From the IMG/VR virus record IMGVR_UViG_3300025483_001129, positions 1 through 21,770 of that record: 21,770 bases of DNA; one strand, written 5' to 3'. Every line of letters starts with the position of its first letter. The first letter of the stretch is position 1. This document shows positions 2,364-19,500 of the stretch, piece by piece. The notes under the pieces were generated by a model, which did not search any database, was not told the origin of the DNA, and was given only the letters and a program-made list of their open reading frames with translations. Origin of the DNA: a virus. Both the position numbers and the translations under genes were made by a program.

Positions 2364-3896
2364 TTAGAACTCGATTACGATTTTGATATCTTCGATTTGA
2401 TCGCTTGCACGACTAATAGACCTTCTATTATCTAGGTAAATAATTTCACCCGTGTTGAAAGCAACCTCTGGTTTTGCATATGCAGAAGTAAATCTCATGC
2501 CCAAATCATACTCAGTGTTATTGATAACACGGGAGGAAGTATTTGGAACCGTTGGGAAATTGATATCAGGTTCTGCAGAAGAACCCGAGGATGCACCCGA
2601 GATAGCGTTAGAACCGTCAAACTCATTCAATGAACCTGTGATTTCGGGGAAGATTCCGTCAACACGATTCTGATAATATTTCAGAACTTTTGTAGTAGGG
2701 TTCCAAGAGATAACTCTTGCTCTAGACGTAACTGACTGTCCACCAACTGTACGAGTTTGGGTAATAATCTCGTCAGGCAAGAAGTTGCCTTGGAAAGTAG
2801 GAGCGAAAATTACTGCTTTAGTAACAGAAGAAGTCAAATCTGACTGCAATTCGCTAGTACCAAACTTACGTGGGTTGACAACTAGACCGACACGACGATA
2901 GTCGTTATCGACAGGGAAGTCACCTGCACCTTCATCATAAGACAGTTTTGCGTTGATCATGACACGGTATGCACCGAGTTCAATGATAGAGTCAAAACCG
3001 TGTCCTCCTGGAGGAGGCATACTCACATCAATTTGTGCTGCAGCACCAGTACCGATACCAGAGATAGTGTCAACACTGATCTTACCGAAAGAGTATCCAG
3101 TACCACCAGATGTTACAGTTGCAGAAATGATTTTACCACCGTCAACAACAATAGAAACACGACCACCAACACCGTCACCTGCAATAGCAACGTTGTCATA
3201 AGTGCCGTTATTATAACCAGAACCTGATGATGTAATAACAACAGTATCAACTTCACCAGAAACTGCGTTTGTCTTCACCGAATTATTGGTGAAGACTGGC
3301 ATGTACTCATTGGAGAAGAATTTCAGAACCTGTGCCACTGGGATGGTGTACATGTACTTCCAACGATAACCATCAGCAGTAGTGATAATAGAAGTAGAGG
3401 TGCCAGTGGGCTCAATTGTCGAAGGTTTACCATTAGGGTCTGAAGGAGACGTTCCATTGTAGATACACTTATAAACTTGATAGTTTGTGTTTACAACATA
3501 AAAGTCTGCATCATACAGTTTGGTAGCACCAGATGCTGCTGTATTTGTTGGGGAATAGTCATGGCGATACATATCGTATGTAAAACCAAGACCACCAGTT
3601 GTTTGTTCTGGAGGAGTCCAGTCAATTCTACGGATAACCTGAATGGTATCTGATGCAAGAACTCTTTTCATAGAGATCATGTCATCATAACTGTCCGAAA
3701 ACTGATCGAATGCATCGATTGCCTGAGGTGGCGAGTTTTCGTTGTCCCACGCCTGCGGTCTTCCAATGAAGACATAAAGGCGATCCCTGTCTTCACCCGC
3801 CGCAGCATCAGACTGGGTGGCATCAGGACCTTCCAGTGATTTGATGAACTTCTTCGCAGAGAAGATTCTAAATTGATCTGTAAGTAGAGCTGACAT
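2364..3896 (-). CDS. 8: Baseplate wedge subunit, T4 gp8 family
   Basis: The 510-residue protein matches T4 gp8 at both ends. The N-terminal part has an FRIFSAKKF segment, VFIGRPQAWD (compare FGRSEPW in T4), a VIRRIDW segment (compare VIPRRDW) and DGYRWKYMYTIP with NEYMPV. The C-terminus, GEIIYLDNRR followed by DQIEDIKIVIEF, parallels the T4 gp8 end. T4 gp8 (334 residues) forms a dimer in the wedge and contacts gp6, gp7 and gp10. The extra length comes from a Gly-rich insert at about residues 210-295 carrying two GSGY-type beta repeats, and another at about 360-440. A TATAAATA box lies 26 bases upstream of the ATG, and a GAGGA ribosome-binding sequence lies 12 bases before it. The family assignment is firm, based on remembered T4 sequence; the role of the inserts is unknown. 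Confidence 0.92.
   Translation of the reverse strand: MSALLTDQFRIFSAKKFIKSLEGPDATQSDAAAGEDRDRLYVFIGRPQAWDNENSPPQAIDAFDQFSDSYDDMISMKRVLASDTIQVIRRIDWTPPEQTTGGLGFTYDMYRHDYSPTNTAASGATKLYDADFYVVNTNYQVYKCIYNGTSPSDPNGKPSTIEPTGTSTSIITTADGYRWKYMYTIPVAQVLKFFSNEYMPVFTNNSVKTNAVSGEVDTVVITSSGSGYNNGTYDNVAIAGDGVGGRVSIVVDGGKIISATVTSGGTGYSFGKISVDTISGIGTGAAAQIDVSMPPPGGHGFDSIIELGAYRVMINAKLSYDEGAGDFPVDNDYRRVGLVVNPRKFGTSELQSDLTSSVTKAVIFAPTFQGNFLPDEIITQTRTVGGQSVTSRARVISWNPTTKVLKYYQNRVDGIFPEITGSLNEFDGSNAISGASSGSSAEPDINFPTVPNTSSRVINNTEYDLGMRFTSAYAKPEVAFNTGEIIYLDNRRSISRASDQIEDIKIVIEF
3021..3263 (-). repeat. Two GSGY-type beta repeats inserted in gp8
   Basis: Residues about 212-292 hold two copies of a unit of the form V..V.ITSSGSGY...(N)..I.GDG.GG, then a short linker, then I..ATVTSGGTGY. 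T4 gp8 has no such Gly-rich insert at this point. The same unit recurs in the 3934-7488 gene and in the giant gene. It is seen directly in the translation; its function is unknown. Confidence 0.7.
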
Positions 3897-3922: not shown

Positions 3923-3930
3923 TATTTATA
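3923..3930 (-). promoter_or_regulatory. T4-type late promoter box before gp8
   Basis: The minus strand reads TATAAATA, the exact T4 late-promoter -10 box recognised by the gp55-type sigma factor in T4. It lies in the 37-base gap between the 1184-residue gene and gp8. Transcription would start about 20 bases before the gp8 ATG, leaving the GAGGA ribosome-binding sequence in the leader. It should drive gp8 and the DUF4815 gene. Confidence 0.8.
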
Positions 3931-3933
3931 GGT

Positions 3934-6900
3934 TTATGAGAACTCGTTTCTGATTAGATTGTCATATCCAATATCCTTGATTCTCCAACGCGCACCATTA
4001 TTTCCAACAATCTCTTCACCGCCAAGGATTGCTTCAAGCACTGCACCAGTGCCTGTAGTATCACTTGCATCATTTGTTACTGTGATAGTTGGGTGTAAAT
4101 TGAATGTACCATCAACACTTTGCACATAACCATAACCTTCTGTAGTAATATTTACACTATCAATTTGGTCACCAGATGCAGTCATAGTTGCAGTGGCAAC
4201 TGCATCTATACCAGTGGTGCTGGTTTCAATTGCAATTGTTGGTGTTGCAGTATAATTCACACCAGGATTGACAACCTTCATATCAATGATACTACCGCTC
4301 TTGGAGAATGTATAGAAACTACCATTTGTACCAAGAGCAACATTACTAGTATTGTATGGTGTAATGTTACGAACCACCAATTCTCTAGTTGCATTATCCC
4401 AAGATGTTACCGTAGCAATAATTCCAGATTGCTGTCCTGTAATCAATTCATCTGGGAAGAAGTTGGCATTGTTGGTATATCTCACGTCTAAGATAAGAGT
4501 CAATGTTGAGTTATGTTCAACACCATCACCAAGAGCACCTGCCAAATCGACTCGTGCAATCTTGACAGGGTTACTAGTATCATTTAGACCATCACCAACT
4601 TGGAACAAGGTAGTGTTTTGACCACCCACTGTTTCTTCAATACCATACAGAGAATCAAACAGACCACCATCTAAACTGATCTGGTTATCAAACTGAGTTC
4701 CAGTATTGTTTAGATCGACAATTCCATCATCATCAGTATCTACATATGCAGTATTTAGTAAGACTGTTGGAGGTGTAATCTTTACATTATAAACTGCATC
4801 ACCTTCAAACAGAACGATCGAAGAACCAATCTCGGTTTCTGTTGTATGTGGCAGTGAACTAGCAGGAGACGCATCAGAGAATCCAGCATCAAATGCAACG
4901 GTAAGTTCTTCAGATGAAGGAATACCAGCATCAATAAATGCCAGATCATCAACTTCAAATTTTACAAATAGTTCTCTAGATTCAGGTCTCCAGTCATAAA
5001 CTTTAGCAATTTTATTACTAGAGTTATCGATACGTCTGATAACTTTATCACCCACTTTGAAATTGTAGGTTGAAATGCCCTCAGAATTATTCTGTCCTGT
5101 ATCTAGGATAACACGCTGATCATATCTAAAGTTTATACCACGAATACAACCAGTAAATCTACCCCTTTCTCTACCAGTGTATCTAACAATTTCATTTCCA
5201 AGAATGAATGTACCAGATCCATCAAATGCACTAGTATTGTCAACAAAGATATTTGTATCTGTTGCCGTTGCAGAAGATGCTAATCCGCAGAAATTATAAT
5301 CAACTGAATTATTTGATTGTCTATTTCTTACTTTTCTCTTTAGGTTTACTAGTTTTGTAAAGATAATATTTGGTGGACTGGTATAACCAACACCAGGATC
5401 AAGGACATCAATACCAACAACATTACCTTGAGAGATTCTTGCTCGTGCTTTAGCACCAATACCACCGCCACCATCAATCAAAATATAAGGTTCTTCTTGG
5501 TAGAACTGACCACCATTATCAACACTGATAGAAGTTAGTTTACCTGTAGTATCAACATATGCAACACCAGTTGCATTTGCTCCACCACCACCTTGGAAGA
5601 ATAGAGACGGAGGTGTTGCATATTCTCTACCTTCGGAAATCAGGGACAAACCAGTAACAGTTTGAGTAACTGCATTACCTACAGCACCAGTGCCTTCACC
5701 ACCAAGAATTTCAACACGAGCAGCACCAAAGTATCCATCACCATTGGACTTCATACTAACATACTGTAGTGATCCAGATGGATAAATTACATTGCCACCA
5801 GTATCAAGTTGGTCTTCTTCGTAAATGATTACTTCTGCATCTGCACCCCTAGGTGACTCCAAGTTGATACTAGGAAGAACTGCACCTGGTTTATAATCTT
5901 TACCAAAGTATTTTGGACCAATAGCATATGGATATACAGGATCTCCATTACTATCTTGTGTCAGGAAGTATGCATAGGTTCCATTTGGATATTCTGTAGT
6001 AACGCAATATCTACCATTGAAATCATCTAGATCTGCATTAGTGCTGTCATAGATATAATCTTGTACAAATGTACCTGCTAGATATCCAGTACATACAAGA
6101 CGTTCTGCCATATTTGCATGGTTATAGCAGAAATAATATAACGTATCTGGTGCTTCTACAGGAACTGTAATTTCTACTCTTCTTAGAGTAGCACCATTGA
6201 ATTGTGCATTATAGGTTTCGTAGTCTACTTCAGCGTTCTCAATGTAATAAACTACACCTTGAGACCAAACTGACGATTTATTGAACTTTACTTGATCTGC
6301 TGTATGCCAACCTTGAGCATCACTATTTCCAAATGCTGAAAATAGAATGCCATGACCAGTATTAGTAGAATCGTCTTGATTGAAAACATATGTACTACCA
6401 CGCTCAAGATTCAGGAACTGTTTCTCAGCATTAGTGAATCCACCACCAGTAATATAATATCGATTACCACCAGGAGTAATTTGACCAGCAGCTACAGTTA
6501 TAGTAAATGTAGTTGTAGATGGAGTAATAACATCTGGTCTAGTTGCAGATACTTCCACACCCGTTCTGAGACGGAATCCACTACGCATTCTGCTAGTAGC
6601 ACCTGGAATCAGAGAATTTGTATATCCCCAAGGTCCGTAAATTGGATATCCATCATAGGAATATCCCAAAATTTTAGAATGTCCATTTGAGTGCCTAGAC
6701 TTATCACCAGAGTAATCAGTATCACTATAATATGGAGCAATAGAAAATGCACCACCCGAAGATGCAAAAGCATCAATTAGTCTAGAACTGGTGTAATAGT
6801 ATCTTCCAAGTTCTGTTGGTTCTCTTGAAGTAGTACCATCATATTGATCCATACCAAGAATGGTAGGAGTCTTGACTACATCATAGTTGAAATTTGGGTA

Positions 6901-7488
6901 TGTGGGAATACCTGGTGGAAGATCGAAAAAATCAGGAGTATGGAGTTCAGTTCCATTTGCCATGATACCCAATGGAGTATCTTCTTGATTTGATCTTACT
7001 TCAGTGCTAGGAACTTCCTTGCCACCTCGGTAAACAAATGTATGATCGTAATCCTGTGCAAAGACTTGTCCTACTGCATTATATGGAGATGGATCTGGTA
7101 ACCCATTAGTAATTATTCGGAGTCTATCATACTCCACAAATATACTAGATGTGACTGAAGTATTACTAGATACAAAAATATCTTTTGCATCAAATGTAGA
7201 AATGACTGTAACCGAGTCTTGACGAGGTGTGATTTCTACCCTAAGAGGATCATATCCTTTACCTGAGTTTAGAACTCGAACGTAAACAATCCTTCCAGAG
7301 TCTTCATCAATAAAAGGATATAGCAGTGCTTCAACTTGTGGCGTTCCACAGTTATCAATAGTAAGTCTTGGAGGATCTAGAGGATCATATCCACTACCCC
7401 CATTTAGCACCTCAATAGATAAGATGCCAAAATCGCTATTGAAGTTTGGTTTGATTACCGCACCCGATCCAGGAACTGTCCTTGCCAT
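3934..7488 (-). CDS. YHYH-family tail protein with inserted cupredoxin domain
   Basis: This is an 1184-residue multidomain structural protein. Residues 19-88 hold two GSGY-type beta repeats. A YHYH-family domain begins at about 121 (LRIITNGLPDP) and runs to about 310, including SNGHSKILGYSYDGYPIYGP. It resumes at about 470-535 (FNGRYC...EYPNGTYAYF...VYPY). Between these halves, about 326-467, sits a cupredoxin-like domain with His379, Cys454, His457 and Met460, a full type-1 copper ligand set with amicyanin-like C-x2-H-x2-M spacing. Residues about 573-712 and the C-terminus carry more beta repeats. The signature YHYH is absent; the aligned position reads RYYYTSS. The start at 7488 follows an AAGG ribosome-binding sequence, 9 bases after the gp10-like gene, so the two are probably co-transcribed. 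No membrane segment or signal peptide is seen. A baseplate or fibre location is inferred from context. Copper binding is predicted only from ligands. Confidence 0.85.
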   Translation of the reverse strand: MARTVPGSGAVIKPNFNSDFGILSIEVLNGGSGYDPLDPPRLTIDNCGTPQVEALLYPFIDEDSGRIVYVRVLNSGKGYDPLRVEITPRQDSVTVISTFDAKDIFVSSNTSVTSSIFVEYDRLRIITNGLPDPSPYNAVGQVFAQDYDHTFVYRGGKEVPSTEVRSNQEDTPLGIMANGTELHTPDFFDLPPGIPTYPNFNYDVVKTPTILGMDQYDGTTSREPTELGRYYYTSSRLIDAFASSGGAFSIAPYYSDTDYSGDKSRHSNGHSKILGYSYDGYPIYGPWGYTNSLIPGATSRMRSGFRLRTGVEVSATRPDVITPSTTTFTITVAAGQITPGGNRYYITGGGFTNAEKQFLNLERGSTYVFNQDDSTNTGHGILFSAFGNSDAQGWHTADQVKFNKSSVWSQGVVYYIENAEVDYETYNAQFNGATLRRVEITVPVEAPDTLYYFCYNHANMAERLVCTGYLAGTFVQDYIYDSTNADLDDFNGRYCVTTEYPNGTYAYFLTQDSNGDPVYPYAIGPKYFGKDYKPGAVLPSINLESPRGADAEVIIYEEDQLDTGGNVIYPSGSLQYVSMKSNGDGYFGAARVEILGGEGTGAVGNAVTQTVTGLSLISEGREYATPPSLFFQGGGGANATGVAYVDTTGKLTSISVDNGGQFYQEEPYILIDGGGGIGAKARARISQGNVVGIDVLDPGVGYTSPPNIIFTKLVNLKRKVRNRQSNNSVDYNFCGLASSATATDTNIFVDNTSAFDGSGTFILGNEIVRYTGRERGRFTGCIRGINFRYDQRVILDTGQNNSEGISTYNFKVGDKVIRRIDNSSNKIAKVYDWRPESRELFVKFEVDDLAFIDAGIPSSEELTVAFDAGFSDASPASSLPHTTETEIGSSIVLFEGDAVYNVKITPPTVLLNTAYVDTDDDGIVDLNNTGTQFDNQISLDGGLFDSLYGIEETVGGQNTTLFQVGDGLNDTSNPVKIARVDLAGALGDGVEHNSTLTLILDVRYTNNANFFPDELITGQQSGIIATVTSWDNATRELVVRNITPYNTSNVALGTNGSFYTFSKSGSIIDMKVVNPGVNYTATPTIAIETSTTGIDAVATATMTASGDQIDSVNITTEGYGYVQSVDGTFNLHPTITVTNDASDTTGTGAVLEAILGGEEIVGNNGARWRIKDIGYDNLIRNEFS
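4013..4290 (-). repeat. C-terminal beta repeats of the YHYH/cupredoxin protein
   Basis: Two units begin at IIDMKVVNPGVNY and IDSVNITTEGYGY, each followed by a P-x-I-x-I/V strand and a Gly/Ala-rich stretch ending near AVLEAILGG. They are of the same type as the repeats in gp8 and the giant protein. Confidence 0.6.
5353..5772 (-). repeat. Central GSGY-type beta repeats
   Basis: Residues about 573-712 contain four units: SMKSNGDGY, SLISEGREYATPP, SVDNGGQFY and DVLDPGVGYTSPP. Each is followed by a short strand and a GGGG-A-type loop. They are seen in the translation and probably form a beta-helix-like or stacked beta arm; the fold is inferred. Confidence 0.65.
5884..7128 (-). other. Split YHYH domain (paralogue of the one at 9669-10457)
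   Basis: The halves at residues about 121-310 and 470-535 match the neighbouring YHYH protein in order: LRIITNGLPDP, HSNGHSKILGYSYDGYPIYGP, NGRYC, EYPNGTYAYF and VYPY. At DNA level 5977-6031 and 9722-9776 are still clearly similar. The HYH histidines of the family name are replaced by Tyr in this copy. Confidence 0.8.
6088..6513 (-). other. Cupredoxin-like domain nested in the YHYH domain
   Basis: Residues about 326-467 show the cupredoxin pattern: LERGSTYVFNQDDS, then GHGILFS with the first His ligand (His379), an extended loop, and APDTLYYFCYNHANM with Cys454, His457 and Met460. The C-x2-H-x2-M spacing is that of amicyanin-type blue copper proteins. The loop between ligand strands is longer than in the domain at 7501-7731. 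The ligands are visible; bound copper is a prediction. Confidence 0.75.
7225..7434 (-). repeat. N-terminal GSGY-type beta repeats of the YHYH/cupredoxin protein
   Basis: Two units occur, SIEVLNGGSGYDPLDPPRLT and VRVLNSGKGYDPLRVEI, at residues about 23-86. They are the same type as the later repeats in this protein and in its neighbours. Confidence 0.65.
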
Positions 7489-7497
7489 ATTACCTTA

Positions 7498-8739
7498 TTA
7501 TTTGATTTGCAGAACACCTGCCATGTTCGTGTGGATGGTACACTGATAGTACAATGTATTGGGTGCGCTATGAGGAACCGTAAAGACCTGCGTACCTGTT
7601 TGACTACCAGACACGCCTAGAGTCCACTGGGATCCAGAAAGACCAGTAGTTGACTGGAATCTAAATGGATGGTTTGTACCAGCATTGTTGACAAAGATAT
7701 AAGTAAATCCTCTATACAGATGCAATGTCGGGTCATCTGTTTGTGCCTGACCAGGACCTTCAATCAAATATGAGTTGTTGTTCAAACCAACTGAAATAAT
7801 ATACCAAAGCGTTGGTGATGGTTGATTGACCCAAGCATCAGTTGCACCATTACCTTGAGGATCATATGTAATAGAATCACCTCTAGCAATAGCGGTGAAA
7901 TTGACATCAGTAAGTTCGGCAAACTCAAAACTACCGTCTACATTGACAGTAAGTGTATCGCCAGAAACTGCAGTAGTACAATTAGTACCGCCAGCAATAG
8001 TTAGTGTGTCAGCAGAACTATCTGCTGTTGTGCTTCCAGAATCACCACCAATAGTTTGGAAAATATTTTGAGTTGCAGCACCTGCAGCATCATCACCTGG
8101 AACGAACTTATTATTGACTGCATCCCATTTGAGAACCTGGTTTGCTGTCGGAGCAGTAGTTGTAATATCAACGTCAACTAATTTATCAATACTACTGTAA
8201 TTGGTAACAATGTCAGCAGTAATATCGCCAAGACCACCACCTGCTCCAATATGCACTTTAGGGTTTTGATCGCCATTGACTGTGAAGAAATACCCTTTAG
8301 TGCTTGCTAATGTTGGTGCAGCACCAACTGTTGCATATTCGTTCTTATATGCAATAGATGAAGATAACTGTAGTTGTCCTGTGGATCCATCAAACGTGGA
8401 AGTTTGACCACCATAAGTAACTTGCACGTCTCCAGTTCCATCTGGAGCTAGATTGATATTGTTACCGCCAGTGCTAACAATATTGTAGTTGTTAGTGTTT
8501 AGCGTTGAAGTTAGATTTGAAAAATCTTGTGGAATAAAATCTGTACCATTCCAACGAAGAACTTGTCCAGTTTGAGCACCTGCTGTATTGATCAGCAGAT
8601 TGCTGCCATTTCCCATGGCACCATAGACTTCTAGAAAGTTATCGTTTACTTTATCAGCACCAGCCCGCAGAGAGTCACCAGTACCATCATTGGGGTTCGT
8701 ACCAATATTTACGTTCTGTTTTCCTGTTCCGTAGGGCAT
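7498..8739 (-). CDS. gp10-type baseplate protein with C-terminal cupredoxin
   Basis: The 413-residue protein opens with QNVNIGTNPNDGTGDSLRAG and then KVNDNFLEVYGAMGNG. This closely matches the start of T4 gp10 (QNINIGNVVDDGTGDYLRKG, then KINENFDELYYELGDG), the module that docks gp10 onto the wedge, mainly via gp7. The middle (about 50-300) is Gly/Thr/Asn-rich with two Q-V-L-[RK]-W-[ND] segments, typical of trimeric fibre-like shafts. The C-terminus (about 337-413) is a cupredoxin-like domain with His357, Cys400, His403 and Met406. The rest of T4 gp10 is missing, so this is a gp10-module protein rather than a full gp10. A TATAAATA box lies 17 bases before the ATG, implying a very short leader with only a weak GAG ribosome-binding sequence. 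A baseplate-anchored tail pin or fibre is the likely role. Confidence 0.85.
   Translation of the reverse strand: MPYGTGKQNVNIGTNPNDGTGDSLRAGADKVNDNFLEVYGAMGNGSNLLINTAGAQTGQVLRWNGTDFIPQDFSNLTSTLNTNNYNIVSTGGNNINLAPDGTGDVQVTYGGQTSTFDGSTGQLQLSSSIAYKNEYATVGAAPTLASTKGYFFTVNGDQNPKVHIGAGGGLGDITADIVTNYSSIDKLVDVDITTTAPTANQVLKWDAVNNKFVPGDDAAGAATQNIFQTIGGDSGSTTADSSADTLTIAGGTNCTTAVSGDTLTVNVDGSFEFAELTDVNFTAIARGDSITYDPQGNGATDAWVNQPSPTLWYIISVGLNNNSYLIEGPGQAQTDDPTLHLYRGFTYIFVNNAGTNHPFRFQSTTGLSGSQWTLGVSGSQTGTQVFTVPHSAPNTLYYQCTIHTNMAGVLQIK
7501..7731 (-). other. C-terminal amicyanin-like cupredoxin domain
   Basis: Residues about 337-413 read LYRGFTYIFVNNAG, NHPFRF (His357), then APNTLYYQCTIHTNMAG with Cys400, His403 and Met406. 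All four type-1 copper ligands are present with C-x2-H-x2-M spacing. The domain ends exactly at the C-terminus, so it would form the exposed tip if the N-terminus docks to the wedge. Confidence 0.75.
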
Positions 8740-8756: not shown

Positions 8757-8764
8757 TATTTATA
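8757..8764 (-). promoter_or_regulatory. T4-type late promoter box before the gp10-like gene
   Basis: The minus strand reads TATAAATA in the 32-base gap after the YHYH-hydrolase gene. The surrounding 16 bases (ACCTATAAATAACTAA) are identical to those at the gp8 promoter. It should drive the gp10-like gene and the 1184-residue gene that follows 9 bases later. Confidence 0.8.
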
Positions 8765-8771
8765 GGTGATA

Positions 8772-10493
8772 TCACGAAAGAGTATTTCCATTGCTTTGGA
8801 AATACTCAGTAATTGCAGCAAGGAGACCAACATTGGTATTATGTCCTGCATTACTTGTCAATTGAACAACATGATTGTTCAGGTATGAATATTTGGTTAC
8901 GGTTGAATAATTGAAGTATTGTTGTCCCGAAGACAAAATTCCACCTTCATATCCCTGACTTGTAGCCATCAGGAATGAACTATGTTTGGCAGGAAGGAAG
9001 ATTGCAGAACCTGGTCCTGGAGAGGAAGATCCTGAGTATGGAACTGTATTATCGTTTGTATTATTGATTTGTAAATATTTTCTAGGTCTATACGGAGATG
9101 CTTCAGTATCGTATCCCGCATTTGCATAGTCTGTATGAATATATTCGGGATCACTTGGTTTATAAAATTTACCCTCTCTATATTGTTGTTGATGTATTTG
9201 TGAAATAATACAACATACAATGTCAATTGATGGTTCATCAAGTTCAATATATGCCCTAGCTGCTAGAGCACCACCATTAGAAGATCCTAGGATTCTAATT
9301 CTATTCAATGAAACATTAGCATATGTCTTGATACTCGCAATCAAGTCGGTAAGCATTTCCATATCTGGTGCTAAATGCTCATTCACCACATTCCATTGAT
9401 TTTGAAATCCAGTTGGTGCAATCAAGATGTGGTTTGGCAATACATCAGCAAATGCATCGATAGTTGCAGCACCGTTACCACCTGCTCCATGAAGAAGAAT
9501 ACAAACTGGTCTTACAGTTCCTTCAGGACCTGCAGGGACTCTAATATTTACAGGGTATGTAAATGTCCCTTCGCTCCATGCTTTCGTAATTGTTAGATCC
9601 GTATCATTTGCAATGAAAGTTGGAGTTGCGATAGGACCGCCTGCAGATCTCTGCTCTTTAGTGCTGTTCCCAAAAATATATGGATATACTGGACGATTCT
9701 GCGTATCCAGTGTCATAAAATATGCATAAGTTCCATCAGGATATTCTGGCGTAGCACAGTATCTACCATTATGAATATCGAGAGAACCTAAATTTTCAAC
9801 AAACTCGTAGTCTTGAATATATGTTCCTGCAGGAATATCAGCGTAGAGAGAACCTCTATTTGCAACTGGTGAAGGAAAAGCACGATAAGAACTCTTCATT
9901 CTCACTACAGGAGTCAATCTATTACCTGCATTTTCATATCCAAAAGGACCATACACAGGATATCCATCGTAACAGAAACCAACAATCTTAGAATGACCGT
10001 CAGGATGCCTGAAGTAATCACCATTGTACTCACTACTACTAAAGTATGAGTTGGATGCGATTACTTTAGAACCCCAGCAGTTTGCTAGAAAAGATCCACT
10101 ATGGTAGTGATACTCACCATTCTGCTCTGGATGACCTCCACATGCGTCTACACCATACGATTGCTCATTATATACCGCATTGTACGCAAATCCTGCAGGA
10201 GGTGTTGTAGACGATCCTGGAAGGGGACCAGGAGCAGCAGAAGCATTGAAAAGGGGTACTCCATTTAGAGCAATACCAATATCACCCAAAGTAGTATTTT
10301 GAGGGTTAGAAGTATTTGTTCCTGCTCTCAATGTAAACTGTACATCGACAGATCTAATCTGTACGGTATTTGGATTGCCAGGAAACAATCCTGACCCCAA
10401 AGGAGTGCCATACAGTGCAGGATCAGGTCGTCCATCAGTGACGACCCTTAGCGTTGTACCATCTAGAGTAGCGGTTGTTGCAGATATCGCCAT
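8772..10493 (-). CDS. YHYH domain fused to alpha/beta-hydrolase (putative esterase/depolymerase)
   Basis: The 573-residue protein has an N-terminal YHYH domain (about 13-275): LRVVTDGRPDP, CGGHPEQNGEYHYHSG with His129 and His131, GHSKIVGFCYDGYPVYGP, and EYPDGTYAYF. From about 310 a complete alpha/beta-hydrolase follows. It has HGAGG (335-339, oxyanion region), G-S-S-N-G at 403-407 with nucleophile Ser405, Asp481 in INNTNDNTVPY, and His551 in NAGHNT. The HGxGG and GxSxG layout resembles the polyhydroxybutyrate depolymerase/LpqC/feruloyl-esterase group, so an ester substrate on the host surface or exopolymer is a reasonable inference. The actual substrate is unknown. There is no signal peptide, as expected for a virion component. 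The ATG lies 24 bases after the giant gene, with GAGGA 12 bases upstream. The last codons form a strong hairpin. Confidence 0.88.
   Translation of the reverse strand: MAISATTATLDGTTLRVVTDGRPDPALYGTPLGSGLFPGNPNTVQIRSVDVQFTLRAGTNTSNPQNTTLGDIGIALNGVPLFNASAAPGPLPGSSTTPPAGFAYNAVYNEQSYGVDACGGHPEQNGEYHYHSGSFLANCWGSKVIASNSYFSSSEYNGDYFRHPDGHSKIVGFCYDGYPVYGPFGYENAGNRLTPVVRMKSSYRAFPSPVANRGSLYADIPAGTYIQDYEFVENLGSLDIHNGRYCATPEYPDGTYAYFMTLDTQNRPVYPYIFGNSTKEQRSAGGPIATPTFIANDTDLTITKAWSEGTFTYPVNIRVPAGPEGTVRPVCILLHGAGGNGAATIDAFADVLPNHILIAPTGFQNQWNVVNEHLAPDMEMLTDLIASIKTYANVSLNRIRILGSSNGGALAARAYIELDEPSIDIVCCIISQIHQQQYREGKFYKPSDPEYIHTDYANAGYDTEASPYRPRKYLQINNTNDNTVPYSGSSSPGPGSAIFLPAKHSSFLMATSQGYEGGILSSGQQYFNYSTVTKYSYLNNHVVQLTSNAGHNTNVGLLAAITEYFQSNGNTLS
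8775..9566 (-). other. Alpha/beta-hydrolase domain with complete Ser-Asp-His triad
   Basis: The order of motifs is canonical: strand VCILLHGAGGNG, strand HILIAPTGFQNQW, nucleophile elbow ILGSSNGGALAARAY, strand-Asp LQINNTNDNTVP, and strand-His VVQLTSNAGHN. All triad residues (Ser405, Asp481, His551) are intact, suggesting an active enzyme. The length of about 264 residues fits a single-domain esterase. Confidence 0.82.
8780..8807 (-). terminator. Perfect 11-bp hairpin at the end of the hydrolase gene
   Basis: The arms 8780-8790 and 8797-8807 are perfect inverted repeats with a 6-base loop. On the minus strand the stem ends in CTC followed by only TTT, so it is a weak candidate for a factor-independent terminator. 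It could also protect mRNA 3' ends. It lies inside the last codons (Glu-Tyr-Phe...Thr-Leu) and directly before the late promoter at 8757. Confidence 0.55.
9669..10457 (-). other. Intact YHYH domain
   Basis: Residues about 13-275 contain the signature EYHYH, a Cys/His-rich lead-in (DACGGHPEQNG), DGHSKIVGFCYDGYPVYG and NGRYCATPEYPDGTYAYF. The conserved His and Cys residues suggest metal binding or a structural core; the family function is unknown. It is a paralogue of the split domain at 5884-7128. Confidence 0.85.
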
Positions 10494-10514: not shown

Positions 10515-10521
10515 TATTTAG
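10515..10521 (-). promoter_or_regulatory. Possible variant late promoter before the YHYH-hydrolase gene
   Basis: The minus strand reads ACCTAAATATAACGAGG across the stop codon of the giant gene. CTAAATA resembles the late box and keeps the ACCTA start of the two good promoters, but it lacks the exact TATAAATA. The position, 21 bases before the ATG, is suitable. It could be chance, in which case the hydrolase is read through from the giant gene. Confidence 0.4.
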
Positions 10522-13500
10522 GTCGTACTAGAAGACCAGATACCAGTTGTGGTGTATCCCGAAAGGTTGTATGCAGTAGATGGGGGAACAGTCGGGAGTT
10601 CCTCAATTGCCGTAGCACCAGAAGTTACTCCAGGAATACCGCCACCAGAGGTTGTACCGCCCGTGGTAGTGGTTGTATTATCTTGGACACCCAATTGCTC
10701 AGGTGTTTCCGTAACAGCACCGCTACCAACTCCACCAGCACCAAACGTATCAATAATTGGAGTTGGTGTACCATCTTCAGGATATTGTAGCAGATCTGGT
10801 GTAGTCCAATCATCAGGAACACTAGATTCTGCGACAACCACAGGATACTTATAACCAGAACCTCTGTTTGTAAGTTCCACACGTTCAACTCCAACCAATG
10901 CTTTGATGTTTGCATCGTAACCGCTGATTGAGTCAACACGAACTAATGGGCGTGTAGTAAATCCAGATCCGCCAGAGGTTACTCTTGCTTCTCTGATTGT
11001 ACCTTTAGTGACCGCAGCAGTTGCTGAAGCGTCCTTACCAAAGACTGATCCGAGGTAATCGAAGGTGATGAGAGAGTTAGACGATTCGATAACTGCGACA
11101 TCTCGATCGCTAGTCTCGCCCTGAATGTCAATTGCATCGCCAGGTTCAATTGGTGGGATAACATTCTCGGCATCAACGTCTGCTTCAGAACCCACGTACG
11201 AGAACGCCACGAATGTGGATCCTACGCGAGGAACTTCTGCGAAGATGATTCTAGAACCAACCAAGTTGAATGCAACACCAGGTTCCTGAATAACACCATT
11301 GAGTGATACGATAATGTTATTCTCTGGTCGTACAACTGCAGATTGGACACCATCAGTCAGTGTCAGTGAGTAGAATGTACCGCTGCGACGTAAGTTGAAA
11401 GACTGACGCAAAGAGTCAAACTCGAACGAAATATCATCCAGTTGTCTGAGTTTACCGAAGTATACACCCACGAACGATGCACCAACTTCAGGAGCTTCGT
11501 TGAACTGGATGTTATCTGAGAATGCTGTATAAGCATCTCCAGAACCAGGAGGTTGAAGAATACCATTGATGAAGATCATCATGTGACCTTCGGGATCTGG
11601 GAAGTATGGAGTACCGTTCGCGGTAGTGAGTTTGTAGGTAGTCTGAGTACCATCGAAACCACGGAATGAACGCTTGACTCTTGCTTTCAGATCAATAACA
11701 GTTTGAACTTGTGCTCTATAACCTGCGCGTGCCTTGAGGGTTTCACGAGCAGTCCATGATCCACGGATATCTTCAATAAAGACTCTCTTAGAGGTGCCGA
11801 CAGTCTTGATATCAACAACCTTAGCAGCAGCATTACCTGTTGATACGACTGAAGTTTGAATGACTGCGTAACCAACAGGGAACTCACCATCAATAGCACC
11901 ATAGTAAGCAATGCCTTCACCATTGTTGAAAGTTCCGAGATATGGTTGTGCGTAGATAAAGTTATTACCCAGATCAACCTCAGTGATAATTGCGCGTCTG
12001 GAAGGATCTTTTGTACCACCCGTGACGCCATACAGAATACCACCTTGCTCAAAGACATTCAGATTACCCTGAACCTGTACGCCATAACGTACATAACCAT
12101 CAGAGACGATTCTTTCACCAACGTTGAGTTCGAGACCTGCGAACTGGTTGATGTCAAGGTACTGGCGAGAGTTTTCTGGATAAACAACACTGGTAGTCTC
12201 GAAAGGTCCAAGAAGACTTTCTGTGTCTACTGTTAGTTTACCACCAGTGTTACCAAGGACTGCTGCGTCAGACTTGATGAAGGTTGTTGTGGTCGCAGTT
12301 TCGCCACTAGTGTAACCCTTGAATGGTACGCCAGTAACAAAGTCACCTTTCAAACTAATAACATGAAGTCTCTTCTCGATAGCATCTACAGTTGCGAAAG
12401 CACCTTCATTGGATTGCAGAATATCTGCAGTCGCCCAAGCACCACCCGTGACATCAATGTCCAGATAGTTGAAGTTCTCATCCGCCCAGAAGGCGTAAAT
12501 AGTTCCTGTGACTGCAAGATCACCTTGCTTGTTACAGGTATCGTTTAGGACGAAAGGACCATCAGTGATTCCACTTACGGTCATTCTCAAGTATTCCTTG
12601 ACAACATAACCTTCATTGACATTGTATCCTCTAATTTCAGAGTTCGAGTCGCTAAGAAGACCGTAGATAAACGAAGACTGTTGAATTTCGCCACCGAATG
12701 GGATAGGAACAGTTCTAGTACCAAACGTCTTAGGCGTAAGAATAATATTATTTTTAGTTTGTAATCCAGTATAGAAGGTACTATCGACCAATTGCGACTC
12801 ATATAATCCGACCAGATAATTGACTACTGCCTGAGCATTTGCTGTAGTATACTCTGCTCCAAGAGTTGCGTCAGTATAAGACAGGAACGTTCCAATTGGT
12901 GAAGGTGATACCAACGTCTGTGCAAGAGCAGCATTCATGTACTGCTTCATTTCATTTAGAATATAAGTTCTAATATTCAGAGCATTGTCAGGGAAGAATG
13001 ATGTACCACTTTGTGCGGCATAAACATCCAAGTTACCTTGATTGAGTTTTGCACCCCACATGTAGACGCCAGATGTACCATCGCCTGCAGTATTTGTAGA
13101 ACCGTTAGATGTACCATAAGAAGAAACATTCAGAGAAGAAACACCGAATGGAACATCGATTGTGATGAATGCTCTATACCAACCATCACCTTGTGGGAAG
13201 ACGCCTGTAGCAACAGGGGTAATACCAGATTGGTTGACCGAGAAAGAGTTACCGTTAGTCAGATCAATCGTGAAGAACACATAGTTGGTTGCATTCCAAT
13301 CAATACGAAGTCTTGCTCTGTCATATCCACCTTCCTTGAAGAAGATTGAGTATGTATATCTCTGAGTGGAGACGTTTACACCAGAGTCATATGATTCTGT
13401 GTCACTATCAAAGGAGACGTTATCACGGTCAAATGTGGTATATGCAGTTAGAACATAACTTCTACTCAGTGCCTTGTCATTAGCATTATTTGCAGGAATT

Positions 13501-16500
13501 ACAAGATCTGCTGTTGTAGTTGCATCAGGTGCTGTAGCGGAATTGATAGTGACAGTGATATCACTAGAACCATTACTTGACCATCCACCACCAGATACAT
13601 CCTCAGTTTGAAGAGCAGGAATCAGGTTTACACCTGCAACCAGATCAGTTGTAATTTGCAATGCTCTCAGACTTGCAAGTGTTTGAGTATTGTTGATTTC
13701 TGTATTAGCAGGAAGAGTAGAGATATCAGTAATTACGATATCGTGAATGACATCATCTGCAACTTGGTTGATGAAATCTTCATACTCTGTACCCCAGATA
13801 CCTGCACCCCACTGGTTAGTGACATCTTGTTCAATCTCAGTTTGATAGTAGTTCTTATTGAACAGCATGATTTGAGCAGCACTTCTGGATGGATCACCAC
13901 CAGGTGCAAGGGTATTGATCATCGAAGTGAACAAGTTGTCAATAGTAGATTGAACATTTGCACAATCTGATGCACTATAATTACCACCTGCGCCAGAGGA
14001 ATCATGTGTAATTGTAGTATCACTAAATGCAACTCTGTTAGTAAACTGAGCAACGTAATAGTCACCACCAAGTGCAATACTATTTGCAGTCTGCAGTAAG
14101 TTTGCTACTGCTTTCTTAGCAAGGAATTGTACTTGCTCAAATGCATATAATGTACTGGTTAGTTGATCTTCTACATGCAGAATCTGCAGATTAGAGTCTA
14201 GGTAGGATTCAACTGCTCGTAAAGAACTATTGTTACCACCCGTCAAAAGGTCTGCAATTACACCTTCTAAGATCAGACCAGCGTCACGGATACACTTGTT
14301 TCTGCCATCAACACTACCACCTGGATATTGGAATGACTGATACTGAGCACCGTTAGAAAGTTCGTAGAAGAATTCTTCTTCCATCAAACTAATTGCTTCT
14401 TCTGTGATGTACTGTTTGTTGAACTTGATAAGATCTGCAGCATCCTTATAACGATCACTCACAGGAGATATGATCGTGTTCATTGTAGTAATCAAGTTGT
14501 CAATAGCAGTCTTGACGTTTGCACAGTTGCCAGCGTCGTTAGTAATGCCAAGGTCAGATACGATTACCGAGTCAGTATATATTGCTGCTGCTTCAAGATC
14601 GCCAGTAATAGCAAGTTTTGCCATCGCACCAAGTTGCTCATGAGCAAACAATGATGCATAAAGTTGTAAGCGAACATGCTGGATCTCATCGTTCTGTCCA
14701 AGATAGAACTTAGCAGCCTCTACAGAATATCTGTTACCGCCAAACTTCAAGTCTTTGATGATTGCTTGCAGGATAAGTGCAAGGTCAGTTTTACAGCGAG
14801 TTGTTCCAGCGCCACTACCATCAGTGTTTCTAGGCATCTCTAATGCCAATGATGGATAGCGGTCGAGCATCAAACCAGCAGTTTCATCGATAATTGCTTC
14901 TGAATTGATTTGAATCAGATCTGCAGCATCAATAAATCTGTACTGAGCATCAGCATAGATTTCATTGACATAGAACTTATCATTAGTAGCATCGTTGAAT
15001 CTGACCGTAAGTGGATCGCCACGATATGCATAAACTTCACCGCCTGCCCATGGGAACAGAGGAGATGTTTTCGTTACGGTAGCAAGATGATCAACTGCTG
15101 TTGCATTAGCATCAATTGCAAGTTCTGCAGCAGAGACATATGCTTGATCCAGAGTGGTTGTAATGATTGCGATCAAGTTGTCCATTGCAGTAGCAACATC
15201 AGCACAATATGGTGATGAAGGATCAACAGTAATAGTTGAATCAATGGTTTGAGTCAGACCATGGTCACCTTGAATGGTAACAGTGGTACTTCTCATAACT
15301 TCTTTGGCAATAGTATTTGCCATGTCGATTGCCCAAACAGTCTCTGCTTCTTCACCCACAATGTGATTGAGAGTAATTGGAGTTACGCTACGGTTGACAT
15401 ATTGTGCAGCAGCGTCCCAAATATAAGCGTTACCACCGTTTCTAACATCTTTCAGTAGAGCACCTACAATCAGTTTAGTGTCAAGGGTACACTGTTGATG
15501 ATTAGGATGCGTTCTAGTTACTTGAGTAATTGATGATGGATATGTTGCAGCATCATTACCGTCAGGATCCATGATGGTATCAGTGACAATTGCCATCAAG
15601 TTATCAATAGCGGTTTCTATGTCAGTACAACCACCAAATACACCAGTGATAGTGGTGTCAGTAGTTTGCGTCAGACCATGCGAACCTTGAATTGTGACGG
15701 CAGTGTTGTTGATAACCTGCTTTGCAACATCTCTTGCAGAATTGAATACGCTTACTGAATCTGCTTCATTGCCAGTCAGGTGCTGAATTACAGTACCGTT
15801 TGTATACAGATCTGCAGCATCCCAAGTTTTGGAGTTGAATCCATACTTCAAGTTATAAGCAATATTGCGAATAGCATCCTTTACATCATCGATGCAGTCT
15901 TGAGCAGTAGTACCACCTGGAGGGGTGGGTCCAATTCTTTCATAACCTTCATTAGCGATAAAATCAAGGTTTGCAAGAATGAGATCATGTGAATCTGCAC
16001 CACGATCACTATCAACTGGAGCAGGGACATGCAAGCGTGGGAAGTTGCGATCCATGCGATAAACTGCTTCAGCAGCAATCAGATCGATATTTGCCTCAAC
16101 TTGATTAGCGGCATCGTAATATCTAAATGCAATGGCAGAGTTTACAAACTCGTCGCCAGCAGTCCAAGTTGGAACACCAGACCAATCGTAGGTAGTGGTA
16201 GTGTCATACTCTTGCTCCATATGAAGAAGAAGTTTGATACCAGCAACACCCTGATAGATACCTGCCAAAGGAGTGAAGTTTGCACTGTATGCCTGATCCG
16301 TACGGATCATGACTTCATCAATGTATCCAGTGAAGTAGTTGCTTGTCAAAGCACCACCAACTGCAACACCCTTAGCGGGGTAGGAGTTTGCATCTGTACC
16401 ATTACCACGGTTGACGCCATCTAGGAACAGAGCACCGTTACCGCTAGTTCTGCTATATGCAATATGATACCAAGAACCAGCAGAAAGAACTGCAGTACCA

Positions 16501-19500
16501 GAGTTTGCAACCACAGCACCATTTACTTCGACAGTAATAATACCGTTGTTCAGATACATTCTAACAGCGACATCAGGATCAGATGCACGCATGTCAAGGA
16601 AAGTTGCTTCTCCAGTTACAGCAGCTGCTTCTGGATAGATGTAACATTCAATTGTAAATGCGTTAGTTCCGAAAGCAAATTCACTGCTAGATGGAATTGT
16701 CAGATTATCACCAACAGTGCCATCAACATAAAGAGATGCTCCACCAAATTTCTTTTCTGTAGTAGATAGAGCAGCGTCACCATTGAAAGTAGCAGTATGG
16801 ATTTCTCCACCAGCACTATCACCACGACTGGTCTTACCAAGATAGATGATACTTTGTCCAGAATTATAACCTAAAACTTCCGCTTTAGCATTCTCACTTC
16901 TGATAATTTGACCTGCACTGAAGAAACCATCACCTTGGAAGTTCCTGATTGCAAGTTGTCTTACTTCTGCAGTTTCATTTGCAAACAGTTCACCAGAGTT
17001 ATTACCATAATTGAAGGTATAGTTGCGAACAAACTCAGTTTCTTGGATTGTACCAGACTCATTACTATACACAATCGTGTAATTGTTTACACTTTCCCCA
17101 GTTGGGAAGTTAGAATCAAATGAGACTAGGTTTGTTTCAAAGTCATTGATCTGAATTTGAGAATCTGCAATATTATCGAGAACAACGTTTGGATACGTTG
17201 CGTTAGAGATTCTGTTGAACAGAAGACCAAAGAATGTAGAACCTTCAGAAATAATAACTCTTGGAATTGCTTCACCACTTACATCATCCGTATAATTGAA
17301 TGCTCTAGTGATAAATGTGACAACGCCAGACTTGAGACCAACGATAATATTATACTGCTCAATTTCAAGCAGACCTGGAGTAGACTGATAAGTACCAGTC
17401 GTCTTGGACACTGCCAGTTCTTGAGTAACCTCAACGTCGGTACTATAAACAGGACCATTTTCCTGCTGCTGTGCAGGTGCAGTACCAGACTGACCACGTT
17501 GCACTTCAATAGTTAGCGACTCTGAAGTTGGGTTTTGTACTGCAGTGACAGAGATGATCTCAGCACCAAACTGATATTGACTACCAACTTCAAACGTTCC
17601 TGCAGGAGGTGGACTAGGAACAGTGCTGGAAGAACCATAAGATACCACTTCAAAAGTAGTAGTACCAGTACCAATAGTATATCTTAGTTTTGCAATAGGA
17701 GATTGCTGACCAACCGAGAGGTTGATTTCTTCAATTTTTGCTTTTTCGCCCTGGAAGTTGACAATCTCTTCACCAAACTGATAAAGATAATCATTAGAGT
17801 TTGTAGCGTCCTTGATAGTTGTTACAGAATCAAGAATACCAAGGAATCCTGTAGAAGATACAGACATGGTTTCACCAAGGTCATATCCATCAACAGCAGC
17901 AGTAGATTCTTGCAAACCACCAGTTGTGGTCAAAGGTGTACCCGCCTGACCATTGAAGATGACATCAATATCATTACCAGATGTCCTGATAACAGTTCCT
18001 CTCCAATTAGAGGTCAAACCAAAGATTGTTTGTCCTAAAGTTGGGAAGATGCCAGATACGCTACTGAAGGAGAATTTGTAAACACTGACGAAATCAATTT
18101 CAACATTTGCATATTGAACCATTGCATTAGGTTGTGGTGGTTCAGAGAAGACAATGCTATTACCCTGAATGTTGAATGCATCGCCTGGGTTTTGAACAAC
18201 ACCGTTGAGAACAACCATCAACTGGTTAGATGCAGCAGATACCGCTTCCTGGTTTACACTAATTGGGAACGAGATACGCTCACCATCAAACAGTTCAGAA
18301 ATATCATCCAAACGCTGAACAATAGAAGTTAGAATGTTCTCCGAAGAAGTCAATCTTCTCTGTCGGAACAGAACTTCACTATTATTATACTGAGTGTAAA
18401 TTGGTTCAACTAGAGCAAAGTTCTGAATATTAGGAACAATTGCAGCATCAGATAGGTTTACAGACTTAGTTAGTTCAAAGTCTGTAATACGATTCTGGAT
18501 AAGTGCTTTATCAGTAAGATTCAATTCACCAAAGAGTTTGAATCCTGCAGGGTGGCAGTTAGTAGTAACAAGTTCTCTCCAGTTCTCAATTGAGACAGAA
18601 GACTGAACAACGTATGAGAAAGACTGATAGAAGTAAGAATCTTGTACTTTCTGAATAATTTCGGATAGTTTACCAACATCATCGATAAACTGACCAGTAG
18701 TTTTAGTGATCGAGTCAATATCAAGAACACCACGAGCAATTGCTAAGTCAGCAATGACACCAGAAGACTTGGAGATCTTACCAGTGACTTTCTCACCGAG
18801 TTCAAAGACTCCTGTGTAATCAACCAGTTTGAGCAGTCTGGGACCGACCAACCAACCATCGTTCTCGGAAACATAACCGATTGCAGTTGGGGTATTTACA
18901 TTTTCGCCCTGATAGATTTCTTCACCTGCAAGGAACTCGCCAGTACCCACGTTAGCAGTTGCAGCACCACCAAAGGATGCAGTAAGAAGAATTTGACGAC
19001 CAGCACCAGCGTTCACGAAGGAAATTGAGTCACCCAGTTCTGCATTAGTCTCGGTAATAGCAATTTTGAGTTGATCCTCTTCTAGTGAGTTTGCAGTACC
19101 AGAAATTGCATAATAAGTCGTAGTAGAGTTTAGTGTACCGACTGCACCAGCAGCGATTGGGAATGCACCATCAACTCCACCATCAGCTTCGGTTTGAAGT
19201 TGTACTTCAGATCCGCTGACAATACCATGAGGATACGAGAACTGCAGCAGACCCAAGTCAAGGTTGACAACATAATTGAAAGATGACTTCAAAGAAACAT
19301 CTGGTTCGGAAGAATATCCAGCACCAGGATCTTTGACAATAATCTTATCAATACGACCGTTCTTGATTGATGCCTCAGCAATAGCACCAGATCCACCACC
19401 ACCTTCAATAACTACAGTAGGTGGTTGAGAATATCCAGAACCAGGATCGGTGACAGTGATGTCACGCAAGATACTAGTATTGATCAACTGAGCGTTGATT

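Follow-up and report, generated by a model that had tools for sequence, protein, structure and literature searches.

A predicted serine esterase joined to a YHYH domain at the baseplate locus of marine cyanomyoviruses

Results

The window, meaning the whole stretch of DNA analyzed here (21,770 nucleotides; positions 1 to 21,770 of IMG/VR virus record IMGVR_UViG_3300025483_001129), is a fragment of a cyanomyovirus (Kyanoviridae) near S-ShM2 and S-RIM14, with all large genes on the minus strand. In order of transcription, these encode a giant virion protein of PHROG 701, identified by profile and homology, whose 5′ end lies outside the window (10518–21770); the YHYH-hydrolase protein studied here, designated P0001 (8772–10493); a gp9/gp10-like wedge/tail-fibre connector of PHROG 677 with a cupredoxin-like C terminus (7498–8739); a baseplate wedge subunit of PHROG 708 (3934–7488); a gp8-like baseplate wedge recognized by Pfam and PHROG profiles (2364–3896); and a DUF4815/"VrlC" protein (1–2358). 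A first-pass annotation of this DNA had set the gene among baseplate wedge genes, and this is correct: the gp10-like, PHROG 708, and gp8 wedge genes lie downstream and the giant PHROG 701 gene upstream.

Two matches to the T4 late-promoter consensus, TATAAATA, were found on the minus strand just upstream of gp8 (3923–3930) and gp10 (8757–8764) and none elsewhere in the window, a count within chance (mean 1.2); none was found before the YHYH-hydrolase gene. The giant virion protein holds a concanavalin A-like (Laminin_G_3) domain at residues 1685–1822 of its partial frame, and in the PHROG 708 wedge protein the YHYH motif has degenerated to YYYT, its domain being split by a cupredoxin-like insertion. 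Cupredoxin-like domains were seen three times: at the C terminus of the 7498–8739 product, at about residues 320–470 of the 3934–7488 product, and at the C terminus of a subtilase protein from another cyanophage cluster (L028:10285-13209). All three keep the His...Cys..His..Met set of type-1 copper ligands, and two of them, as well as related loci, weakly matched models of amicyanin, plastocyanin, and rusticyanin. Judging from these residues, they are possibly copper-binding parts of the tail; a literature search found nothing on cupredoxin together with cyanophage tails.

The interval 8772–10493 is a single uninterrupted minus-strand frame of 573 aa with an ATG start, while the plus strand has stop codons throughout; the coordinates and the single 573-residue protein given in the first-pass annotation were thus correct, and the strand, unstated there, is minus. 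P0001 is a full-length member of PHROG 2576 (1022 bits, residues 1–573 on profile positions 1–587), and the same protein, at 94% identity over its full length and in the same gene order, is found in S-ShM2 (ADO97705.1) and S-RIM14 (A0A1D7SKQ1). The PHROG 2576 gene order is shared by S-ShM2, S-SSM4, and ACG-2014d. A frameshift or stop artefact was rejected, the frame being intact in the relatives checked. Both halves of the protein are under purifying selection (dN/dS about 0.05–0.30), with values of 0.11–0.30 for the hydrolase and 0.05–0.30 for the YHYH half, dS being saturated in the more distant pairs. A phmmer search of PDB sequences with P0001 gave no match.

The gene is therefore already in databases, cultivated Synechococcus phages included, and its function is unstudied. 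Annotations of PHROG 2576 phage proteins go no further than "hypothetical," "YHYH domain-containing," or "gp7 baseplate wedge initiator," and no esterase assignment was found among them. The gp7 label is carried publicly by SShM2_094 of Synechococcus phage S-ShM2 (L025:14001-15722). P0001 has no gp7-type Pfam match, and its PHROG baseplate matches run through the YHYH part only; we dropped this label as functional evidence.

The YHYH domain (PF14240) reported in the first-pass annotation was readily recovered at residues 57–264 (9702–10325, minus strand), with 137.3 bits against a curated cut-off of 25 (E 7.7e-40), and its motif occupies residues 128–131 (10101–10112, minus strand) in the context EYHYHSG. 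Six residues of this domain (D116, H121, H129, H163, D165, and H167) do not vary among 14 homologues and are candidate metal ligands. Since a published prediction (PMC7824862) makes YHYH a tail-associated hydrolase that binds Zn2+ through conserved His/Asp residues, P0001 could be a two-enzyme unit in which the YHYH half is itself metal-dependent, a reading compatible with an esterase in the other half. We consider it possible rather than likely; the invariant residues fit it, whereas the models of this half, at a pLDDT of about 25 in the full protein and 33 alone with 12 sequences, are too poor to be usable. Because the YHYH half could not be modeled, an attachment role for it is likewise a guess. 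It may anchor the hydrolase, or it may be the metal-dependent hydrolase predicted by others.

The C-terminal half is an alpha/beta-hydrolase module (residues 291–573; 8775–9623, minus strand), delimited by its presence or absence as a unit after ...STKEQRS. All of its motifs stand, on the minus strand, at the residues given in the first-pass annotation: HGAGG, of the oxyanion-hole type and supported by the relatives' alignment, at 335–339 (9477–9491), and, from both model position and alignment, the nucleophile Ser405 (9279–9281) within GSSNG (403–407), the acid Asp481 (9051–9053), and the base His551 (8841–8843). An AlphaFold2 model built from eight sequences reached a pLDDT of about 80–94 in most 10-residue blocks of this half, with weaker loops (below 50) at 364–374, 451–455, and 484–496. 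In this predicted model, Ser405 falls between strand 394–404 and helix 406–417, Asp481 follows strand 472–478, and His551 lies between strand 542–547 and helix 555–566, so that, as modeled, the nucleophile-acid-base order is canonical. Of the structure check proposed earlier, the fold thus stood in the predicted model; for the triad, strand-helix positions and homology point to the expected arrangement.

Across 22 relatives, including secreted Bacteroidota enzymes, Asp481 and His551 were each conserved in 22 and Ser405 in 21, the sole exception (L046) having Asp in place of the Ser. Chance occurrence of the motifs was rejected, S405, D481, and H551 staying unchanged in alignments with as little as 42% identity. 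The first-pass claim of an intact serine-hydrolase unit within a baseplate gene cluster is borne out by the fold, the conserved triad residues, and selection, and, as modeled, this half looks like a working serine esterase.

The model of the hydrolase half (residues 295–571) matched many solved serine esterases with Z 15–21. With VIA-align, residues 289–569 matched the acetyl xylan esterase AoAXEB (9j07/9j08) at Z 21 (238–239 residues; 21.1 over 239), the feruloyl esterase 8jh8 at Z 19.2, and PHB depolymerase-type structures (8daj/9byu) at Z 18–19. An independent sequence-profile search again placed AoAXEB (9j07) on top (5.6e-4), with both GxSNGG and D..xPYxGG, the acid motif, in register. Sequence libraries detect the hydrolase weakly, Pfam Abhydrolase_2 falling below its cut-off. 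The CE1-type enzymes of A. oryzae (9j07, AoAXEB), A. alcalophilum (8jh8), and L. thermophila (8daj) therefore share a fold with P0001, and 9j07 also its GxSxG and PYxGG-bearing acid motif, which suggests a structural and weak sequence kinship to CAZy CE1-type enzymes; they are, however, non-viral, lack YHYH, and are about 15% identical to P0001, and their substrates are not transferable.

The first-pass term "depolymerase-like" held only as a sign of distant kinship. The model for extracellular type 1 scl-PHA depolymerase (NF050058) matched P0001 partially, at 27.9 bits (1.5e-6) against a cut-off of 150, and the PHB depolymerase family esterase model TIGR01840 (cut-off 107.85 bits) did not match it at E 0.1; TIGR01840 scored at most 18.8 bits in hydrolase relatives. 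Since P0001 does not reach the cut-offs set for these PHA-depolymerase families, the term should stay a loose label. No pectate-lyase or beta-helix match to P0001 was found in Pfam or PHROG; its C-terminal half is an alpha/beta-hydrolase.

Cellular relatives were sought by scanning one genome per species with two peptide patterns. Four were found, all in Bacteroidota (Polaribacter and Saprospiraceae; L052–L055), with hydrolases 42–46% identical to that of P0001 and the same triad residues. Unlike the phage protein, they are secreted by the cell: all have a signal peptide-like start, and three of the four carry a T9SS sorting tail. Among 196 genomes of Polaribacter's order, only that Polaribacter genome gave a match at 1e-30, and the subfamily is accordingly rare there. 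In BFVD, six viral models matched at 1e-3, namely two of these cyanophage proteins, one viral protein of 303 aa (32% identity), and three giant-virus hydrolases.

Whole P0001 matched 454 phage records, mostly through YHYH, and the hydrolase matched 65, which correspond to roughly four lineages (S-ShM2/S-SSM2/S-RIM14, S-SSM4/S-SSM6b, ACG-2014d, and ACG-2014h [S-MbCM7]). In the first three, the hydrolase forms the C terminus of a YHYH protein, with the gene order unchanged. On contig L015, by contrast, an 88% identical YHYH protein ends exactly at ...STKEQRS, the 0.85-kb hydrolase is missing, and TAAATAACTAAAAACATAGAGCAATG follows, the same leader as precedes gp10 in the window; the YHYH proteins of L016–L022 likewise stop at about this point.

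The carrier also differs. The hydrolase of S-MbCM7_177 (AHB80591.1, V5URI3), 42% identical and with the triad residues kept, is borne not by YHYH but by a peptidase S8 protein adjoining tail-fibre genes. There, as at six metagenomic loci (L043, L044, L045, L048, L049, and L050), the hydrolase follows the S8 domain, with a cupredoxin-like domain beyond it wherever the end is present; PHROG 9158 spans these proteins, its profile being about 280 residues shorter. S8 proteins of S-H9-1, S-RSM4, and S-CAM4 match the protease part alone, and S-H38 has a hydrolase-free relative of the subtilase protein between baseplate wedge genes. Elsewhere, the hydrolase forms the C terminus of a PHROG 17744 "baseplate wedge subunit" (L037; 2e-92) or the N-terminal part of an Ig-domain (He_PIG) protein (L046/L047). 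Subtilase proteins were also noted in their own right in cyanophage tail/baseplate clusters (L028:10285-13209 and L059:4007-5659), some with an esterase and a cupredoxin-like domain.

Sequence divergence also points to exchange. Between L013 and ACG-2014d, dS was 0.005 for the hydrolase and 0.18 for YHYH, as expected if the module alone had been exchanged. Two separate acquisitions might lie behind the two YHYH-hydrolase clades, which an unrooted tree did not group together, although support for the key branch was only 84/86. Most cyanomyoviruses have no such module, which must therefore be dispensable for infection in general. The hydrolase is a plug-in accessory module of marine T4-like phages, carried by different baseplate or tail proteins.

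Evidence bearing on virion location came from S-SM1, whose T4-GC969 protein (SSM1_102, 6180 aa) lies between gp6 and gp9. Mass spectrometry identified this protein in virions that had been purified (PMC3037559). It is 38–56% identical to the giant protein of the window in three long stretches, and a segment at its residues 1423–1543 shares 43% identity with YHYH residues 167–275 of P0001. Because a detected virion protein is homologous to the giant neighbor and holds a YHYH segment, a virion location for P0001 is supported indirectly; it is also favored by the L037 wedge fusion, the S8 gene of S-H38 among wedge genes, and the syntenic cluster. Our literature search found no virion proteomics of a phage carrying a YHYH-hydrolase gene, and none joining a depolymerase with a Synechococcus cyanophage virion proteome.

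Discussion

We propose, as the probable though by no means certain explanation, that P0001 works at the baseplate as a serine carboxyl/acyl esterase of a CE1-like branch of the alpha/beta-hydrolases, attached to the virion via YHYH and de-esterifying a surface or exopolymer glycan. Its catalysis, virion location, substrate, and role in entry are what we infer, as follows. P0001 would be held on the virion through its YHYH half; after tail contact, Ser405 would attack the ester, with His551 and Asp481 as the relay and the HGAGG loop serving as oxyanion hole. The target would probably be an O-acyl group on an outer polysaccharide or exopolymer of Synechococcus, whose removal might open up or expose the surface so that irreversible binding or approach of the baseplate can follow. 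Because acetyl, feruloyl, and polyester bonds are all cleaved by CE1-type enzymes, the fold does not reveal the substrate. An extracellular habit is favored by the closest cellular relatives that the scan recovered, all four from Bacteroidota and three of them bearing a T9SS sorting tail.

A different use of the same fold would be binding, as in receptor recognition, with catalysis vestigial or irrelevant. YHYH proteins have been listed among putative receptor-binding and carbohydrate-binding components (PMC7029224), and the Ig-domain proteins retain the domain without its nucleophile. We nevertheless find this unlikely: a binder would not need Ser, Asp, and His to be retained together, yet these are kept in every other relative, across three further architectures and the cellular enzymes. 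The exceptions themselves (L046:5833-9342 and L047:5833-9342) have GFDTG in place of GxSNG, with Asp instead of the nucleophile Ser but with acid and His retained, and on their sequence appear to be a natural inactive or altered-chemistry variant.

Alternatively, P0001 could be a late-made, non-virion protein, a soluble enzyme released at lysis that degrades host debris or exopolymer. The secreted nature of the cellular relatives would suit such a role, as would the indirect way in which P0001 has been placed on the virion. Against it stand the position shared with virion genes, the YHYH segment in the detected S-SM1 protein, and a baseplate wedge protein that carries the module as a fusion, and we regard it as improbable. 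That P0001 is a true short-chain-length polyhydroxyalkanoate depolymerase is very improbable, for although NF050058 matches every architecture scanned with NCBIfam and the fold match to a PHB depolymerase has Z 18.7, the scores of 20–48 bits in hydrolase relatives fall far below 150, acetyl xylan and feruloyl esterases fit the fold equally well or better, and PHA is an intracellular polymer that is not known as a surface polymer of the hosts of these phages.

A tail-borne esterase is, as such, an already known kind of thing: SGNH-type tailspike esterases and beta-helix depolymerases are tail-borne enzymes that trim surface glycans. As a baseplate-associated esterase, P0001 would act like them, but its fold and catalytic motif differ, and it is encoded at a baseplate locus, whereas they are found on a trimeric spike. 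The novelty lies in an alpha/beta-hydrolase fold at a baseplate locus and in its having been exchanged among genes of virion type. The recurrence of the esterase piece in several tail-type genes suggests an interchangeable, ester-cutting surface tool. Tentatively, and with more doubt than confidence, we suggest that an esterase cartridge swapped among YHYH, subtilase-cupredoxin, wedge, and Ig-domain carriers might combine with a virion subtilase and a YHYH metallohydrolase into a variable baseplate digestive kit directed against host exopolymer, unlike the known fibre-borne depolymerases.

Little is known of how cyanophages cross the outer layers of marine Synechococcus, and only a few of the phages' surface enzymes have been identified. 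Because the cultivated phages S-ShM2, S-SSM4, and S-RIM14 carry a conserved putative esterase whose active residue can be predicted, this entry question is testable, and the plug-in pattern shows a route by which enzymes reach the tails of large marine phages.
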